Of a DNA stretch of 64,000 bases, positions 3,707-55,641 are shown one piece after another (the first letter of the stretch is position 1; each line of letters begins with the position of its first letter). A program made the position numbers and the translations under genes. Under the pieces are notes generated by a model, which saw nothing but the letters and a program-made list of their open reading frames with translations, was not told where the DNA came from and searched no databases. Source of the DNA: Luteolibacter luteus (lineage in GTDB: Bacteria; Verrucomicrobiota; Verrucomicrobiia; Verrucomicrobiales; Akkermansiaceae); the NCBI RefSeq assembly GCF_012913485.1, contig NZ_CP051774.1:3038001-3102000 (forward strand), read 5' to 3'.

Positions 3707-4447
3707 GGATGAATCACGGAATTCACGGAAGGAAGACCGTGTAGCGGTCGCGGTGGGTATTCTGGTTGGGATTACTTGGTTTGGTATTCTTGCTGTTCGT
3801 TTGGCTGGCTGTGCCCCGGACCGTCGGAAACACTAAATGGAGAGGTTCCAATAAGATCCCTCGTTCTGGCGCACGGTCCTGGTTGCGTCTTTTTCAGCTA
3901 TCTTCGCTTGGAAAGGACCCCTCCCGGATGGAAGCAGGAGACCAGACTTTATCTTGGAACCTTGGAACCTGAGGAGCCTATTACGGTCTTTCACCGAGCG
4001 ACCGAACTTAGGAGAGAGAAGCGAGGCTTCACCCTATTCATCGCATATTGGTTCCTGATCCTCCTCTATCTGCCGTTTTGGCTTGGGGGCGGTAGTATGG
4101 AGCCACGGAGCGGGCAAAAGGGGCGAGATCGGGAAGGCGTGATGAGTAGCCTAGGTGGAAGCCCAAGCCTTGGTGCCGCTCCAAGATCTTCTGGGATGGC
4201 CTCTGGGATTTGTATCCTTGATCGCTCTCTAGATCGATCGACACCCTCGCACTGGAGCGCGAGCTCAACTGCCAATGGCAGGTGGGAGCGGGTGTCCGAG
4301 GTCTGGGATTCCATACGGATCCGCATGATGGATGGAGAGACCGAAGGGCTGCATGCTTCCGGTCAATGGAAGCCTTGGAGAGGGAGCTCTTGCCTCCATC
4401 TCACCGGAGATGATAGGGGAGAGGGAAGCCGCTTTCGCCCGATATGA
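3703..4447 (+). pseudogene. probable decayed gene for a small two-helix membrane protein
   Basis: No intact gene fills this stretch, but its remains look coding. An ATG at 3703 overlaps the mnmG stop as ATGA and is in frame with a membrane segment (GLLGLVFLLFVWLAV from 3766), yet a TAG at 3742-3744 interrupts it. Downstream the plausible reading moves to another frame, open from 3776 to 4447, containing a hydrophilic part (ERTPPGWKQETRLYLG) and a second hydrophobic stretch, FLILLYLPFWLGGG. This layout (N-terminal helix, soluble middle, LLYL..W.GG helix) resembles the intact protein at 4792-5268. The frame ends at 4447, overlapping the next gene as ATGA. Alternatives are a real 223-residue protein started by TTG at 3776, or non-coding DNA. 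Confidence 0.35.
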
Positions 4448-47793: not shown

Positions 47794-49872
47794 ATGAACC
47801 TCCTGTCCTCCATCCCTCTTGCCCAGACCTCGTCGGCTGCTGTCATTGCATCCCTCGTAGTCGGCGCTGTCATTGTTCTGGTGGTTACCAGCATGGTCTT
47901 GTTTTCGATGTTCTATCGAAAGGCCCAGCGCGGCCAGGCCCTGATCCGCACCGGCGCGCGCGGTACCAGGGTGTCGTTCAATGGTTTCACCGTGATCCCC
48001 GTGCTGGAACGCTTGGAGACGATGGACATTTCCTTGAAGCGGGTGGAGATCGACCGGACCGCGAAGAACGGCTTGATCTGTAAGGATAACATGCGCGCGG
48101 ACATCAAGGTGGCCTTCTTCGTGCGGGTGAACCAGACCGATGAAGACGTGCTGCGTGTCGCGCAATCCGTCGGCTGTGATCGCGCCTCGAACACCGAGGA
48201 AATCCGTTCGCTCTTCGATGCGAAGTTCTCCGAAGCGCTCAAGACCGTCGGCAAGCGCTTCGATTTCACCGAGCTTTACGAGGAGCGCGAGACCTTCCGC
48301 GACGAGATCATCAAGATCATTGGCACCAACCTGAACGGCTTCGTGCTGGACGATGCTGCGATCGACTATCTGGAGCAGACGCCGATCGAGGCGCTTGATC
48401 CGGATAACATTCTCGACGCCGAAGGCATCAAGAAGATCACCGAGCTGACCGCTGCGCAGGCGAAGCTCGCGAACCACATCCAGCGCGACAAGGAGAAGGT
48501 CATCAAGCAACAGGACGTGGAAGCCCGCGAGGCCATCCTCGAACTGGAGCGCCAGCTTTCCGAAACGGAGGCCAAGCAGAAGCGCGAGGTCGAGAGCGTC
48601 CGTGCCCGCGAGGAAGCGGAAACCCAAAAGGTCCGCGAAGAGGAACGCCAGAAGTCCGAGCGCGCCCGCATTGCCGCGCAGGAAGAGATCGATGTCGCGA
48701 CCCAGAACAAGGATCGCCAGGTCCTCGTGGCCCAGCGCAACAAGGAGCGCACCGACGTGGTCGAAGTGGAACGCGTGAAGCGCGACCAGGAACTCGAGTC
48801 GATCGAGCGCGAGCGCATCACCACGCTTAAAGCCATTGAGAAGGAGAAGGCCGTGGAAGTGGAGAAGAAGGCGATCCAGGATGTCATCAAGGAACGCGTC
48901 GCGGTCGAGAAGCTGGTTGTGGCCGAGCAAGAGCGCATCAAGGACACCGAGGCCTTTGCCGGCGCAGACCGCCAGAAGCAGGTCAAGGTGACGCTTGCCG
49001 AAGCGCAGGCTCAGGAAGAAATGATCCGCAAGATCAAGGAAGCTGAAGCCACGCAGGAAGCTGCCAAGCTCCGTGCCGACCAGGATCTCTACGAGCGCAT
49101 CAAGTCTGCTGAGGCTTCGAAGAAGTCGGCCGAACTCAAGGCCGAAGAGGTCGTCATTTCCGCGGAAGCCGAACAGGCCGCCAGCGAGAAGCAGGCGCTT
49201 GCCAAGAAGCTGCTCGCGGAAGCTACCGCGAAGGAAGCCGCCGCCTCCGGCCTCGGCGAGGTCGAGGTCATGCTTGCGAAGGCAGACGCCACGCAGAAGC
49301 AAGGCACTGCGGATGCCGAAGTGAACCGCCTCAAGTTCGAAGCGGAAGCCGAAGGCATCAACAAGAAGGCCGAGGCCATGAAGCTGCTCGAGTCCGCCGG
49401 CCAGTCGCACGAAGAATTCAAGCTCCGCCTAGAGAAGGAGAAGGCGGTGGACCTCGCGGGTATCAATATCCAGAAGGATATCGCCGAGGCCCAGGCCAAG
49501 GTGATGGGCGAAGCCATGAAAGCCGCGAAGATCGAGATCATCGGCGGCGAAGGGAAGTTCTTCGACCAGATCGCGGGCGCCATTTCCCGCGGCAAATCGG
49601 TGGACCGCATGGTCGAGAACAGCGCCGTGCTCGCCGACGTGAAGGACACCTTCTTCAACGGCGATCCGGAATACTTCAAGGCACAGCTCCGTGAATGGGC
49701 CGGCCAGTTCGGAGTCACCGCGGAAGATGTGAAGAACCTCAGCGTCGGAGCGATCCTCGGAAAGCTCCTCGTCGACGCCACCGGTGACGACCGCCGCAAG
49801 CTCCTGTCCTTCCTCGGCACCGCCGACCGCTTCGGCCTGGCGGACGAGAAGGCAGCGAAGGTGCTGCGTTGA
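47794..49872 (+). CDS. flotillin-family protein (YqiK-like)
   Basis: A 692-residue membrane-associated scaffolding protein. An N-terminal helix (AAVIASLVVGAVIVLVVTSM) is followed by the SPFH/band-7 domain (about residues 35-200: RVSFNGFTVIPVLERLETMD, then DNMRADIKVAFFVRVNQTDE). A very long charged Ala/Glu/Lys coiled coil covers about 215-560, with regular AEAQAQEEMIRKI-type repeats. The C-terminal domain ends AKVLR. Flotillins oligomerise and mark membrane microdomains. It is directly downstream of the YqiJ-like gene (14 bp). The next intended partner gene is probably the ATPase at 50560, now separated by the GxxExxY cassette. Confidence 0.92.
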   Translation: MNLLSSIPLAQTSSAAVIASLVVGAVIVLVVTSMVLFSMFYRKAQRGQALIRTGARGTRVSFNGFTVIPVLERLETMDISLKRVEIDRTAKNGLICKDNMRADIKVAFFVRVNQTDEDVLRVAQSVGCDRASNTEEIRSLFDAKFSEALKTVGKRFDFTELYEERETFRDEIIKIIGTNLNGFVLDDAAIDYLEQTPIEALDPDNILDAEGIKKITELTAAQAKLANHIQRDKEKVIKQQDVEAREAILELERQLSETEAKQKREVESVRAREEAETQKVREEERQKSERARIAAQEEIDVATQNKDRQVLVAQRNKERTDVVEVERVKRDQELESIERERITTLKAIEKEKAVEVEKKAIQDVIKERVAVEKLVVAEQERIKDTEAFAGADRQKQVKVTLAEAQAQEEMIRKIKEAEATQEAAKLRADQDLYERIKSAEASKKSAELKAEEVVISAEAEQAASEKQALAKKLLAEATAKEAAASGLGEVEVMLAKADATQKQGTADAEVNRLKFEAEAEGINKKAEAMKLLESAGQSHEEFKLRLEKEKAVDLAGINIQKDIAEAQAKVMGEAMKAAKIEIIGGEGKFFDQIAGAISRGKSVDRMVENSAVLADVKDTFFNGDPEYFKAQLREWAGQFGVTAEDVKNLSVGAILGKLLVDATGDDRRKLLSFLGTADRFGLADEKAAKVLR

Positions 49873-49948: not shown

Positions 49949-49971
49949 TTTAACCGCGAAAGGACGCGAAA
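49949..49971 (+). repeat. left inverted repeat of the GxxExxY cassette
   Basis: A 23-bp sequence beginning TTTAACCGCGAAAGG that matches the reverse complement of 50533-50555 with a single mismatch (position 16, A for G). It is followed by another CGCGAAA unit at 49974-49980 or so, giving an extra decamer on this side. Confidence 0.85.
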
Positions 49972-50095
49972 GAGCGCGAAACTTGGAAAAACAATAAGAT
50001 CGACCAACGGCGAGTGTGAGGGTTGAGCCACTTGTGAATCCCGCGATCACTATCGAACCTTTCTCAATTCGCCGCAATCTTTCGTCCTCGAGGCC

Positions 50096-50515
50096 ATGAG
50101 TGATCCAATCTATAAGCAAGAAAGCTATGAGGTAATGGGCGCATGCTTCGAGGTCTACAAAGAGATGGGTGCTGGATTTGTCGAACCGATCTACCACGAA
50201 TGCCTCGACCGGGAAATGACCTCGCGGAACATTCCCTTTGTGCATCACGCCGGACTGGCCTTGACATACAAAGGCCAGCCTTTGCGGCTCAGCTATGAAG
50301 CGGATTTCGTAATACATTCGAAGATCGTCCTTGAGGTGAAAGCCGTGAAACGTCTCGACGATTCCCATCGCGTCCAACTTCTCAACTACCTTAAGGCAAC
50401 CGGCTTTCAGTTGGGACTTCTGGTCAATTACGGCCGCGTGGGCGGTTTGGAATGGGAGCGCATTGTCCTATCGGACTGGCTCACGCAACAACGTCGAGTT
50501 CCTGATCTCCTCTAA
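50096..50515 (+). CDS. GxxExxY protein (PD-(D/E)XK nuclease-like)
   Basis: A 139-residue protein of the GxxExxY family, named for the motif here as GFVEPIYHECL (about residue 23). The core (YEADFVIHSKIVLEVKAVKR, about 70) has the Asp and Glu-x-Lys of PD-(D/E)XK nucleases (D73, EVK). A second feature is the helix pair SYEVMGACFEVYKEMGAG at the N-terminus. The family is widespread in PVC and Bacteroidota genomes, often in many scattered copies; activity is unproven. The gene is bounded by 23-bp inverted repeats at 49949 and 50533, with no recognisable transposase, so it looks like a non-autonomous or self-contained cassette. Confidence 0.88.
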   Translation: MSDPIYKQESYEVMGACFEVYKEMGAGFVEPIYHECLDREMTSRNIPFVHHAGLALTYKGQPLRLSYEADFVIHSKIVLEVKAVKRLDDSHRVQLLNYLKATGFQLGLLVNYGRVGGLEWERIVLSDWLTQQRRVPDLL

Positions 50516-50532
50516 TTTTCCTGCCTTTCAAA

Positions 50533-50555
50533 TTTCGCGCCCTTTCGCGGTTAAA
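50533..50555 (-). repeat. right inverted repeat of the GxxExxY cassette
   Basis: Reverse complement of 49949-49971 with one mismatch, ending CGCGGTTAAA. Only four bases (50556-50559) separate it from the ATG of the ATPase gene, so the ribosome-binding region of that gene lies inside the repeat. Confidence 0.85.
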
Positions 50556-50559
50556 TCTT

Positions 50560-53500
50560 ATGCCTGAAGAACCTCCCAAGCCCGATCAGCTCGAAGGCGG
50601 CGCGTATGAAGTGATCCGCGCCCGGCTCGACAAGCACGCCGCGACCTTGCGAACGGGGCTTGATGTGCTGAACGCCGAGCGCCTTCAGGTCTTCGGCGGC
50701 GTCGAGACGACCTTGCTCGGGACCGAACGTGTCCCGACCGAGCACAACTGTATCGCCCGTGATCTGGTGGCGATTGGCAAGCAGCGCTTCCTATTCGGCT
50801 ACAATATCCAGTTCGGCCTCAAGCAGACGACCGATATCAAGGACGTCTTTGCCGCCTACGATTTCAATCCGGAGACCCGCTCCTTCACCCAGCTCGGGGT
50901 GGAAGAGGTGCTCGGTGATGCGAAGTTCGCGGAAGACTTCGCCTACCTCTTCAAGTATTACCGGGAGGCCGTCTTCCTGAAGTTCATGGTCATCGGACCG
51001 GCGCTTTATTTGGTGATGCGCGCCGGGAAGACGGTTGATGACATCAAGGCTTTCAAGTGGCGCTTCGCCAGCGGCGGAGGGCTTGAGTATCTCGGCAATC
51101 GTTTCGATCACGAGTGCGTCTATCCGCCCCAGCAAGAGTTTGAATGGAAGCGTGCTCACCGCGGCATGCATCGCTCCGGGGAGCACCCGCACATCTCGAT
51201 CGAGGATCGCGTTTTCGTGGAAACCGTTGGCGGTGACCTTACCGTCAAGGTCGAGGACAATACCGCGAGCGGCCAAGGCATCTATTCGGAGCCGGTTGCC
51301 GAGAGTGATCAGACCCTCGATGACGCCGAGATCTTCTACGCGATCGTCGGTTCGCTGATCTTGCTCAAGATTCTGCCTTATCGCGAGTCCATGCACCGTC
51401 ACCTCGTCTTCAATGAGAAGACGAAGTCGGTTCACCGCATCGATACGATCGGAGACTCCTGCGTGCTGCTGCCGGATGATCACGGCATCATCTTCGCGAA
51501 TGGCTACCTGCTCCAGAGCGGGGAGGTGAAGACCTTCGAGCACGGCCTGCTCGACATGCGCTTCGAGCGGAAGGTCGCCAGTGCGAATGGAGAGGACATT
51601 CTCTATTCCTTCTACAACCGTGCGGCAGGGGACTACGTCCTGCTCTCGTACAACCGGATCAAGCAATCGGTCGAAACTCCCATCGTCTGCTCCGGCTACT
51701 CTCTTTTCGGAAATGGCCAGCTCGTGCTTTTCCGCGCCGACGGCCAGCCGCAGAAGCACCACGCGCTCCAAATATGGCAGACGCCGTACTTGGATGATGA
51801 AACCAGTGCCGCCGCCGCAGCCGACAAGGAGTCCTTCCTCTACAAGATCGGGAATCCCGAGCTGGTCCGGGGCATGGCAGAAGCCCGCGAATTGCTGACC
51901 CTTCTCCAGAAGGACGACTCCTTCGCCGGCCTTTATCTCGATATCGTCAAGCGTTCGGGCGATTTGCTTGATGCCTACTTCTGGCTCGATCGCAGCGAGT
52001 GCCAGTCGCTCGCCGCTCCGGTCCGTGAGATCAAGAAAGCGGGCGAGGCCGCGATTGGAGAATTCGACAAGGTTCAGAAGCTCCGCGCGGTCGCCACTGA
52101 GCGCACCGCGGTGGTCCGCACCGCAATGGAGAAGCTTGTCCGTGAGGCACGGAATTCCCCGCCGGATGCACTCCAGGGCTTCGTTCACCAGCTTGCAGGC
52201 CTGCGGAAGCTGCGGGGCGAGATCATTGCTCTGCGCGATGTCCGATATACGGACGCCGAAACGATTGCGGCCTTCGAGAAGGAGGTGGTCGAGACCACCG
52301 ATGTCGTTTCAACGAAGACTGTCGAATTCCTCCTCGGGGAGGAATCGCTGAAGTCCTACGCCGCCGCGATCGATACGCAGGAAGCCGCGCTCACGAAGAT
52401 ATCAAAGGTCACCGAGGCGGATGACGTCGCCACTGCGCTCGATCAGGCCGCCGGTGAACTGGAAATGCTCATCGAGATCGTCGGTGGCTTGAAGATTGCG
52501 GATGCCACGCAGACCACTGCCATCATCGAAAGGATTTCCGCGCTTTATGCCCGGCTGAATGGCACCCGTGGTTCGTTGCGGAACAAGCGCAGGGAACTCG
52601 CGCGCGGGGAAGGGGAGGCGCAGTTCGCCGCCCAGATAAAGCTTCTTTCGCAGGCGCTGGCGAACTACCTCGATCTCTGCGATACCCCGGAGAAGTGCGA
52701 TGAATCACTCACCCGCCTGATGGTTCAGGTGGAGGAGTTGGAAGGGCGCTTCGCAGAGCTCGACGAGTATGTCGAGCAGCTCACAACACGTCGCGAGGAG
52801 ATCTACGACGCTTTTGAAGGACGCCGCACCCAGCTCGTCGAGGCGCGTGGCAAGCGCGCTGGAGCACTTTTCAAATCGGCAGAGCGTATCCTGGCCGGCA
52901 TCCGCAATCGCGTCACCGCCCTGAAGGAAGTTGAGGAGATCCACTCCTATTTCGCGACCGATCCGATGATCGAGAAGGTCCGAGACCTGATCGGCCAGCT
53001 GCAAACCTTGGGTGATTCGGTCAAGGCGGATGATCTCCAGACGCGGCTCAAGACCCTGCGTGAGGATGGGGTGCGCCAGCTCAAGGACAAGAAGGACCTC
53101 TATGTGGATGGCCAGAATGTCATCCGCTTCGGGAAGAATGCCTTCAACGTGAACACGCAGCCGCTGGAAATGACCATCGTCCCGCATGAGGACGCCATGG
53201 CCTTCCACCTGACGGGCACGAAGTTCTTCGAATCGATCACCGATGCCGATTTCCTAGCGGCCCGTGAGGCTTGGGATCTGGAAGTGCCGAGCGAAAGCCC
53301 GCGTGTCGCCCGCGCCGAGTATCTGGCGTGGCGCTTCCTCATGGAGGGGAAGGCGGGGGGTGACCTGCTTGGTGCCGTGCAGGCCTTCATGCAGCCTCGT
53401 TATGCCGAAGGCTACACCAAGGGCATTCACGACGAGGATGCCACGAAGATCCTTGCACTGCTTTTACCGATCCATGCCGAAGCCGGTCTGCTGCGCTTTG

Positions 53501-55641
53501 CCCCGCGCGAGCGAGCGGCCGCGCTACTCTTCTGGGAATCTTGGGAAGATCCTGCGAAGGCGCGCCTAGCCGGACAGTTCGCATCCTACGGGAAGCGTCG
53601 TAGCTTGTTCTCCGGGGGGGATGAGACCCAGCGCTGGAAAGCGAGGCTTGCCGGGGGCTTCACGAATTGGCGCGGCGACTACGGACTCTTCCCGGACGTG
53701 AATTCGGTGAAGGTAGCGTTGTACCTTGAAGAGGAACTTGCCGCTGCTGGTGCCTTCGTTGTTTCTGCCGCCGCCGCGGAACTTTCGAAGGCCTTCCATC
53801 AAGGTCTGGTGGCAAAGCGCGCGGATTCGATTTTCAAGGACTCGCTCGGAGACCATGACTGTCCCGTCTCCCTGAAATACGAAATCGCTCGCGATTGGCT
53901 CGCAGGCTTCGCGGCCTCCCACCCGGAGAGCCTGCACGGTTCGCCCGCGGATCTGGCGGATGCGGTGATCGATGAGGCCGCGGTGCATCTCGCCCGTGGT
54001 GGTTACGAACAGCGTGCCGTGAAAGCGGTGCCTTTGTCCTTCTTGGTCGAGGGTCTGCGTTCCAGCCATCCGCGGATTGCGAATGGCAGCCTGGAAGTTC
54101 ATTACAGCGAGTTCCTCGATCGTCTGGAGCGTCATGAGCGCACGGACGCCGCGGCATTCCGCGGCCTTGCCGAGCGCAAGACCAAGCTCACCAGCGAGAA
54201 GCGCGGACAGATGCGCTTGGATGAGTTCAAGCCGAAGGTCATGAGCGCCTTCGTGCGAAATCGCCTCATCGATGAAGTCTATCTTCCGCTGATCGGGAAC
54301 AACCTCGCCAAGCAACTTGGCACCGCAGGGGCCAATACCCGCACCGACCGCATGGGCCTGCTGCTCCTGATTTCCCCGCCCGGCTACGGCAAGACGACGA
54401 TCATGGAGTACGTGGCGAACCGCCTCGGCCTCACCTTCGTGAAGATCAACGGCCCGGCGCTCGGCCACCGCGTGCTTTCGCTGGATCCCGCCGAAGCCCC
54501 GAACGCCTCCGCCCGCATGGAAGTGGAACGCGCGAACCTGGCGTTGGAGATGGGCGACAACGTGATGCTCTACCTCGATGACATCCAGCACACGGATCCC
54601 GAGTTCCTGCAAAAGTTCATCAGCCTTTGCGATGCACAACGGAAGATCGAGGGCGTGTGGAAGGGCCAGGCAAAGACCTACGATCTCCGGGGTCGGAAGG
54701 TTGCGGTCGTCATGGCGGGCAACCCTTACACCGAGAGCGGCGGCAAGTTCCAGATCCCGGACATGCTCGCGAACCGCGCGGACACCTATAACCTCGGCGA
54801 CATTCTTGGCGGTCACGAAGCGGCCTTCAAGGCGAGCTACATCGAGAACGCGCTCACCTCGAATGCCGCGCTTTCCCGCCTCGCCAGCCGTTCGCAGAAG
54901 GACGTGCTCATGCTCATCCGCGTCGCCGAAACCGGCAGTCGCGATGGTGCCGACTTCGAGGGCAATTACACGCCCGCTGAAGTTGAGGAGATGCTCGCGG
55001 TAACCAAGCATCTGCTTGCCGTGCGGGACACGATCCTGCGGGTGAATCTCCAGTACATTGCCAGCGCCGCGCAGGAAGATGCCTACCGGTCCGAACCACC
55101 CTTCAAGCTCCAGGGTTCCTATCGCAACATGAATCGCATCGCCGAAAAGGTGCTGCCCCTCATGACACCGGAGGAGGTGCGCCAGATCATCATCGATCAC
55201 TACCGGAGTGAATCGCAGAACCTCACCACGGCCGCGGAGGCGAACCTCCTCAAGTTCTACGAAATGGAGGGCCTGCTCGATGACACGCAGGCCGTGCGCT
55301 GGGAGCAGATCAAGAAGGAGTTCAATAAGCGCAAGCTGATGGGTGCCGGAGGCGACAGCGATCCCGTTGGCCGCGTTGTGGCCCAGCTCACCCAGTTCAA
55401 CGATGGCCTGGAAGCGATCAAGGAAGGCATCTCGCTAGCCGGTCGCAGCTACGCCCAGCCGCAATCGCTTGCGGAGCAAACCTTCGCCCGGCTTCAACAG
55501 ATCATCGAGGGTCTCCGCGCGGTCCCGGTACAGGTGGACATCAAGGTTGTGCCGGTGCAGGACGACAAAGGCAGCATCGAGCGGGTGGATGGGCCGGACA
55601 GCCCACCTCTGGCCTTCCAACCCGACGTCAGGCAGGGTTAG
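50560..55641 (+). CDS. very large coiled-coil AAA-type ATPase ('DNA repair ATPase'-like)
   Basis: A 1693-residue soluble protein. The N-terminal 450 residues are strand-rich and propeller-like (GVETTLLGTERVPTEHN, FANGYLLQSGEVKTFE). The middle, about 450-860, is coiled coil (AAIDTQEAALTKISKV, LEGRFAELDEYVEQLTTRRE). The C-terminal part contains an AAA-type ATPase: Walker A PPGYGKTT at residues 1273-1280, Walker B VMLYLDDIQH at 1335-1344, and AGNPYTESGGKFQIP near 1387. Database entries of this type carry the uncertain name 'DNA repair ATPase'; the function is unproven. Its neighbour downstream is an amidohydrolase (10 bp), upstream the flotillin. A membrane-microdomain-linked remodelling role is inference from that linkage. 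Confidence 0.82.
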   Translation: MPEEPPKPDQLEGGAYEVIRARLDKHAATLRTGLDVLNAERLQVFGGVETTLLGTERVPTEHNCIARDLVAIGKQRFLFGYNIQFGLKQTTDIKDVFAAYDFNPETRSFTQLGVEEVLGDAKFAEDFAYLFKYYREAVFLKFMVIGPALYLVMRAGKTVDDIKAFKWRFASGGGLEYLGNRFDHECVYPPQQEFEWKRAHRGMHRSGEHPHISIEDRVFVETVGGDLTVKVEDNTASGQGIYSEPVAESDQTLDDAEIFYAIVGSLILLKILPYRESMHRHLVFNEKTKSVHRIDTIGDSCVLLPDDHGIIFANGYLLQSGEVKTFEHGLLDMRFERKVASANGEDILYSFYNRAAGDYVLLSYNRIKQSVETPIVCSGYSLFGNGQLVLFRADGQPQKHHALQIWQTPYLDDETSAAAAADKESFLYKIGNPELVRGMAEARELLTLLQKDDSFAGLYLDIVKRSGDLLDAYFWLDRSECQSLAAPVREIKKAGEAAIGEFDKVQKLRAVATERTAVVRTAMEKLVREARNSPPDALQGFVHQLAGLRKLRGEIIALRDVRYTDAETIAAFEKEVVETTDVVSTKTVEFLLGEESLKSYAAAIDTQEAALTKISKVTEADDVATALDQAAGELEMLIEIVGGLKIADATQTTAIIERISALYARLNGTRGSLRNKRRELARGEGEAQFAAQIKLLSQALANYLDLCDTPEKCDESLTRLMVQVEELEGRFAELDEYVEQLTTRREEIYDAFEGRRTQLVEARGKRAGALFKSAERILAGIRNRVTALKEVEEIHSYFATDPMIEKVRDLIGQLQTLGDSVKADDLQTRLKTLREDGVRQLKDKKDLYVDGQNVIRFGKNAFNVNTQPLEMTIVPHEDAMAFHLTGTKFFESITDADFLAAREAWDLEVPSESPRVARAEYLAWRFLMEGKAGGDLLGAVQAFMQPRYAEGYTKGIHDEDATKILALLLPIHAEAGLLRFAPRERAAALLFWESWEDPAKARLAGQFASYGKRRSLFSGGDETQRWKARLAGGFTNWRGDYGLFPDVNSVKVALYLEEELAAAGAFVVSAAAAELSKAFHQGLVAKRADSIFKDSLGDHDCPVSLKYEIARDWLAGFAASHPESLHGSPADLADAVIDEAAVHLARGGYEQRAVKAVPLSFLVEGLRSSHPRIANGSLEVHYSEFLDRLERHERTDAAAFRGLAERKTKLTSEKRGQMRLDEFKPKVMSAFVRNRLIDEVYLPLIGNNLAKQLGTAGANTRTDRMGLLLLISPPGYGKTTIMEYVANRLGLTFVKINGPALGHRVLSLDPAEAPNASARMEVERANLALEMGDNVMLYLDDIQHTDPEFLQKFISLCDAQRKIEGVWKGQAKTYDLRGRKVAVVMAGNPYTESGGKFQIPDMLANRADTYNLGDILGGHEAAFKASYIENALTSNAALSRLASRSQKDVLMLIRVAETGSRDGADFEGNYTPAEVEEMLAVTKHLLAVRDTILRVNLQYIASAAQEDAYRSEPPFKLQGSYRNMNRIAEKVLPLMTPEEVRQIIIDHYRSESQNLTTAAEANLLKFYEMEGLLDDTQAVRWEQIKKEFNKRKLMGAGGDSDPVGRVVAQLTQFNDGLEAIKEGISLAGRSYAQPQSLAEQTFARLQQIIEGLRAVPVQVDIKVVPVQDDKGSIERVDGPDSPPLAFQPDVRQG

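Follow-up and report, generated by a model that had tools for sequence, protein, structure and literature searches.

A single GxxExxY gene that is tightly bracketed by inverted repeats in Luteolibacter luteus raises the question of whether gene and repeats form one unit and, if so, how such a unit is kept or moved. The gene lies in a stretch of 64,000 nucleotides (hereafter the window; G000:C1:3038001-3102000), which belongs to a genome of 6.4 Mb contained in one contig (G000). A sequence-only reading of the window had described the locus as a cassette with 23-nt inverted ends and had suggested that a defined end sequence would explain the spread of GxxExxY genes.

The two inverted 23-nt repeats, with one mismatch, are present at 49949-49971 and 50533-50555 as described; both are real, but the true arms are longer, extending to about 49985 on the left and starting from 50520 on the right. 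The left arm (49949-49985, forward strand; full letters TTTAACCGCGAAAGGACGCGAAAGAGCGCGAAACTTG) consists of TTTAACC, three copies of the word CGCGAAA (49955-49961, 49965-49971 and 49975-49981) and CTTG. The right arm (50520-50555, reverse strand) is inverted and consists of TTTAACC, two copies of CGCGAAA and an inner tail, TTTGAAAGGCAGG, which begins at 50520 and recurs in dispersed elements. On the forward strand the right-arm words read TTTCGCG, at 50533-50539 and 50543-50549, and the full letters of this arm on the other strand, from 50555 to 50520, are TTTAACCGCGAAAGGGCGCGAAATTTGAAAGGCAGG. In both arms CGCGAAA therefore recurs every 10 bp. Between the arms lies the GxxExxY gene (50096-50515, forward strand; 139 aa), which matched TIGR04256 with an E value of 2.5e-36 and PF13366 with an E value of 3.1e-36. 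It is the sole gene there, with no second plausible gene and no known transposase, as the sequence-only reading had held. The cassette occupies the whole gap between two neighbours transcribed in the same direction. The upstream neighbour, which marks the cassette site, encodes a 692-aa protein that is SPFH/flotillin-like by eye (47794-49872, forward strand) and has orthologues in 15 of the 18 genus genomes; the downstream one encodes a protein of 1693 aa that by eye is an AAA-type ATPase (50560-55641, forward strand), and its start codon is located 4 bp beyond the right arm. What may be a decayed inverted arm (TTCGCCGCAATCTTTCGTCC) follows the left arm at 50060-50085, and in two other genomes, G099 and G097 (L056 and L057), a left arm and then an inverted arm make up a complete short pair before the GxxExxY gene.

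The window protein is a clear member of its family, scoring 124.5 bits against TIGR04256 (cut-off 35) and 124.7 bits against PF13366 (cut-off 22). This is the only profile family that it matched, and it does not belong to the HUH/Y1 (RAYT) nucleases. In an alignment of relatives, residues G25, G27, E30, Y33, D70, E80, K82, Q94 and Y98 are invariant or nearly so, and the last five of them follow the order D..ExK..QxxxY expected of RecB-like nucleases. A structure model built from 91 natural relatives (pLDDT 94.3) showed a compact alpha/beta PD-(D/E)XK fold, the top fold match of which was Cas4 SSO0001 (Foldseek E 5e-5, Z 9.3), followed by LHK-exonuclease and lambda exonuclease. Judging from this model, we are confident that the window protein has a RecB/Cas4-like PD-(D/E)XK fold, and we regard it as a predicted nuclease. 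Sequence searches of the PDB and of PHROGs with the GxxExxY protein gave no significant match, and the window protein was without a match among the PADLOC anti-phage defence models; some relatives matched these models weakly, Cas4 most often (12 of 91). Many GxxExxY proteins, as seen in the alignment and at 50496-50515 of the window, have a short C-terminal tail (PPDLL, PPTL or EPLDLH, for instance), which could be a docking peptide.

The reading that we favour, and consider rather probable, is that the cassette is a minimal unit in which a RecB/Cas4-like nuclease would recognise its own coded arms, act there, and so move or maintain the cassette together with its short derivatives. The nuclease would bind the arms as a phased oligomer or dimer and would nick or cut at them; cutting may let the cassette displace rivals or enter gene junctions, and may also spawn short gene-less arm pairs. 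Taken as a whole, such a system would resemble the REPtron but use an unrelated enzyme. Against this mechanism stand the facts that no movement event was seen and no target duplication was found among the compared loci, and we know of no precedent for a 139-aa PD-(D/E)XK protein as the only mobility enzyme, which also counts against it.

Comparison with relatives, one of the checks suggested by the sequence-only reading, gave a mixed outcome. The same SPFH/AAA junction is occupied in 10 of 14 genus genomes, by cassettes of three classes, and the other four have neither cassette nor arms. Class A, with CGCGAAA or ACGAAA arms, was found in G000, G097, G099 and G101; class B, with CACGGAA arms, in G006, G019, G039 and G100; and class C, with ACGAATC arms, in G071 and G098. 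On the SPFH-gene tree, the sister pairs G000 and G006, and G099 and G100 (100/99 support), each carry A in one member and B in the other, and the cassette class requires 9 changes on this tree, no fewer than shuffled labels do. Vertical inheritance with change of the arms in place is insufficient, since the class at the SPFH site shows no relation to the host phylogeny. Within a cassette at this junction, the two arms match each other with a median score of 46, against 15 and 14 for the same arm across species, and the within-cassette match exceeded the cross-species match in 153 of 171 species pairs. The genes flanking exchanged cassettes are 78-100% identical per 100 bp. Between G100 and G101, for example, identity per 100 bp is 92-100% towards the ATPase gene and 87-99% towards the SPFH gene, and the GxxExxY gene and both arms differ.

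Other junctions gave similar results. The hisS/aspS junction harbours two cassette classes, eight empty genomes and one pseudogene that has retained its arms; at this last locus (L270 in G048) the arms next to the pseudogenised GxxExxY are still recognisable. The gene-less sites at SPFH/AAA and at hisS/aspS lack an arm pair as well. The carA/purA junction carries a whole cassette in G100, a remnant that is internally deleted but keeps both arms in G000, and a lone right arm in G006, while the remaining genomes are empty or occupied by other DNA; in G030, G097 and G101 (L283, L284 and L293) the occupant is a two-gene pair that resembles an antitoxin (DUF433-like) and a PIN-like toxin. We concluded that the gene and its two arms are present, absent or exchanged as a unit at operon junctions. 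The idea that the end sequence explains the spread of the gene is supported to the extent that gene and inverted ends are gained, lost and exchanged together, but no single end is found family-wide. No target-site duplication was visible at the window, at L002 or at ureB/ureC, where the empty relatives compared are too diverged. One clade of GxxExxY genes that spans genera has 20 of its 24 members at the SPFH site, so long residence accounts for part of the pattern. As judged from these sequence comparisons, cassettes both stay for long at one junction and are exchanged between lineages.

These observations could also be explained by homologous recombination, which would exchange alleles at a fixed operon locus without any transposition, the arms serving in autoregulation of the nuclease or of its mRNA, as operators or as processing sites. 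Several results fit this explanation. The cassettes are collinear in tight pairs of same-direction genes (125 of the 176 for which neighbours could be called, the gaps having medians of 8 and 16 bp), the genes at the SPFH site belong mostly to one clade that is kept at the site across genera, and the start of the ATPase gene is 98-100% identical over 300 bp between G100 and G101, as after local recombination, against 87-99% in SPFH. We nevertheless consider it unlikely, because it leaves unexplained the scattered gene-less inverted arm pairs, the spacing pattern shared by the two inverted arms, and the occurrence of related cassettes at unrelated sites.

The gene-less pairs are numerous in some genomes. 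The motif CGCGAAA-N(1-4)-CGCGAA was counted 24 times in G000, 66 times in G030, 71 times in G097 and 70 times in G071, against 1-3 for the reversed control, and CGCAGAT pairs were counted 33 times in G030 and 72 times in G103, against 0 for the controls. Many of these dispersed pairs are inverted, about 110 bp long and gene-less. When nine dispersed elements were aligned with the window arm, the words were invariant and the spacers variable. At ureB/ureC, the pair in G000 uses the word of that genome and the pair in G101 the variant particular to G101, AACAACGAAAGGGACGAAA; G056, G048 and G006 have no arm pair there. At the same junction in G030 and G097 (L418 and L419), a different inverted element, GGGAGCGCGGAATTTATTCCGC ... 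GCGGAATGAATTCCGCGCTCCCAGTG, takes the place of the word-coded pairs. Solo arms were observed too: three adjacent intergenic ones with the words CGCGGAG, CGCGAAA and CACGGAA are located at about 1440-1600 of L007 (near 6261450 of G000:C1), and CACGGAATTCACGGAA, a word pair of class-B type, stands alone at 3715-3730 of the window, distant from all GxxExxY genes.

Dispersed words and resident genes do not always correspond, which counts against the favoured reading. G030, G071 and G039 have many CGCGAAA pairs and no gene of the CGCGAAA class, and G103 has many CGCAGAT pairs and no CGCAGAT-class gene. Rank tests of gene class against dispersed-repeat count gave one-sided p values of 0.04 and 0.07, and gene class was set aside as a predictor of this count, the correlation being weak and having exceptions. 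Loss of the gene after spread of the repeats would account for the pairs without a cognate gene. In 400-kb samples of G101, G071 and G000, the density of word-specific repeats was too low for comparison.

Pairs without a cognate gene, together with the inverted ends and the short gene-less forms, would also be expected if the arms were transposon or MITE ends moved in trans by an unrelated transposase, with the nuclease as mere cargo. This explanation seems to us quite improbable: the word class tracks the GxxExxY clade, arms accompany about 87% of the GxxExxY genes across phyla, no target duplication was seen and the window cassette contains no transposase.

A typical arm usually consists of three 7-bp words at a pitch of 9-10 bp. 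The word and the spacing are common to both arms of a cassette and differ between cassettes. We compared 100 cassettes with C[AG]CN[AG]AG words, and found that the two arms have the same letter 2 of the word in 99% of cases and the same letter 5 in 97%, against 50% and 51% between cassettes; the corresponding values are 77% against 41% for letter 4 and 88% against 17% for the spacer-length pattern. The letters of the spacers are nearly free, agreeing in 44% within a cassette and in 38% between cassettes, and the arms therefore resemble protein recognition sites rather than copied repeats. Because every subfamily and cassette has its own word, the exact 23-mer of the window is missing at nearly all other GxxExxY loci. 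The search for it beside other GxxExxY genes, which the sequence-only reading had recommended, thus went against that reading, and the 23-mer is ruled out as a universal end.

The agreement between arms could in principle be due to their forming a stem around the gene, in RNA or in single-strand DNA, with pairing alone under selection. The arms are complementary over the words, their spacer lengths are equal, and the orientation of the cassette follows transcription, all of which would suit a stem. However, copied arms or whole-length pairing would constrain the spacers, so phased-word recognition fits better, and the nearly random spacer letters disfavour selection on an RNA stem only. Pairing, moreover, requires no triple word, no link to a protein clade and no dispersed copies, and we consider this explanation very improbable.

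The link between arm class and protein also speaks for the favoured reading. Arm class changes 25 times on the protein tree, against a mean of 67 for shuffled classes, and the similarity of arms rises with the identity of the proteins (Mantel r 0.34, against at most 0.07 in permutations). In these trees and alignments, the word class follows the clade of the GxxExxY protein; since related cassettes share ancestry, this correlation alone is no proof of recognition. Single protein columns were considered as setting the word and several lay above the median, but they are confounded by clade structure and the word classes are crude, so they were not retained.

To see how general the inverted arms are, we used a sample of 240 distinct GxxExxY genes from a family, phylum and GTDB genome scan, the GTDB part covering Planctomycetota, Acidobacteriota, Bacteroidota, Chloroflexota, several proteobacterial classes, a cyanobacterium, a spirochaete and the archaeal Methanothrix. 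Arms were called from a local inverted match with a score of at least 27 between the two 300-bp flanks, and in the displaced control both flank windows were moved outward by 400 bp. An inverted arm pair was found at 185 of the 213 testable genes (about 87%) and at 1 of the 213 displaced controls, which refutes chance, or a common low-complexity intergenic repeat near the gene, an explanation of practically negligible probability, even though some words are simple-repeat-like (GGATGGAT at L002). Repeated 4-mers inside the arms are spaced 8-10 bp apart with a maximum at 9, the outer edge of the arm is mostly AACC or CACC, and arms at both flanks in the opposite orientation were found at five genes only. 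We concluded that matched inverted arms are the normal build of the GxxExxY family in bacteria of many phyla and in one archaeon. G000 itself has a second GxxExxY gene, at the junction of a hisS-like gene and aspS, whose arms (GGACCGGGATAGATAGGATGGATGGGATGAAT and the inverted counterpart) are quite unlike those of the window. Few cassettes are present on plasmids (8 records of 72,556) or in viruses (5 loci), a scarcity that counts against the favoured reading. On four IMG/VR viral contigs (L256, L257, L258 and L259), GxxExxY genes have AT-rich inverted arms with their own repeated word of about 10 bp (e.g. TTACTTAAAATTT); therefore, the cassette build may extend to DNA viruses. In E. coli, one query gave no match by DNA similarity, a weak test at such a distance.

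Among known systems, the cassette most invites comparison with the REPtron, in which a RAYT/TnpA-REP gene lies between inverted cognate REPs and short copies are dispersed (PMC8266576). The two are alike in that one nuclease gene lies between inverted repeats cognate to it, that different enzymes go with different repeat families, that short inverted pairs lacking the gene, which resemble REPINs, are scattered over the genome, and that the gene is more resident in behaviour than an IS. The REPtron enzyme is of the HUH/Y1 type, whereas that of the cassette is a predicted PD-(D/E)XK (RecB/Cas4-like) protein; the REPtron has a GTAG-tagged palindrome, whereas the cassette has arrays of phased direct words, with no GTAG adjoining the window arms; and the cassette is exchanged whole at fixed operon junctions. 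It fails as a REPtron on enzyme class and repeat type, and was therefore not filed as one; by analogy, it is likely to work like one. With Cas4, RecB and lambda exonuclease the window protein shares a common fold and the motif order D..ExK..QxxxY, but it is shorter (139 aa) and has the added GxxExxY motif, and no placement of its gene in an operon for CRISPR or recombination emerged here. Inverted ends are likewise found in MITEs and small IS elements, whether or not a gene lies inside; in contrast, the cassette has no DDE transposase, no target duplication was seen, and its ends vary between cassettes in a coded manner.

The gene with its word-coded ends resembles a mobile or self-recognising cassette of a kind not yet described. 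In the open literature, to which the search was confined (subscription papers lay outside it), GxxExxY was mentioned in two papers, no description of its arms or function was found, and a literature search by repeat sequence returned nothing relevant. We suggest tentatively, as a distinct possibility, that GxxExxY cassettes are a widespread prokaryotic mobile or self-maintaining element, in which a lone RecB/Cas4-type nuclease would read the arms, drive replacement and make a REPIN-like population of pairs, with a readable protein-to-DNA code. Should the nuclease act alone, the cassette would to our knowledge be among the smallest mobile units (about 0.6 kb). The arms would account for the periodic intergenic repeats seen beside GxxExxY genes in many phyla (ACCACAGAG..ACACAGAG and ACCGCGAAA..CGCGAAA), and arm word and spacing, set against protein sequence, offer a natural data set for a protein-DNA recognition code. 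For GxxExxY, a common family, the matched coded arms supply a putative substrate and a testable mechanism.
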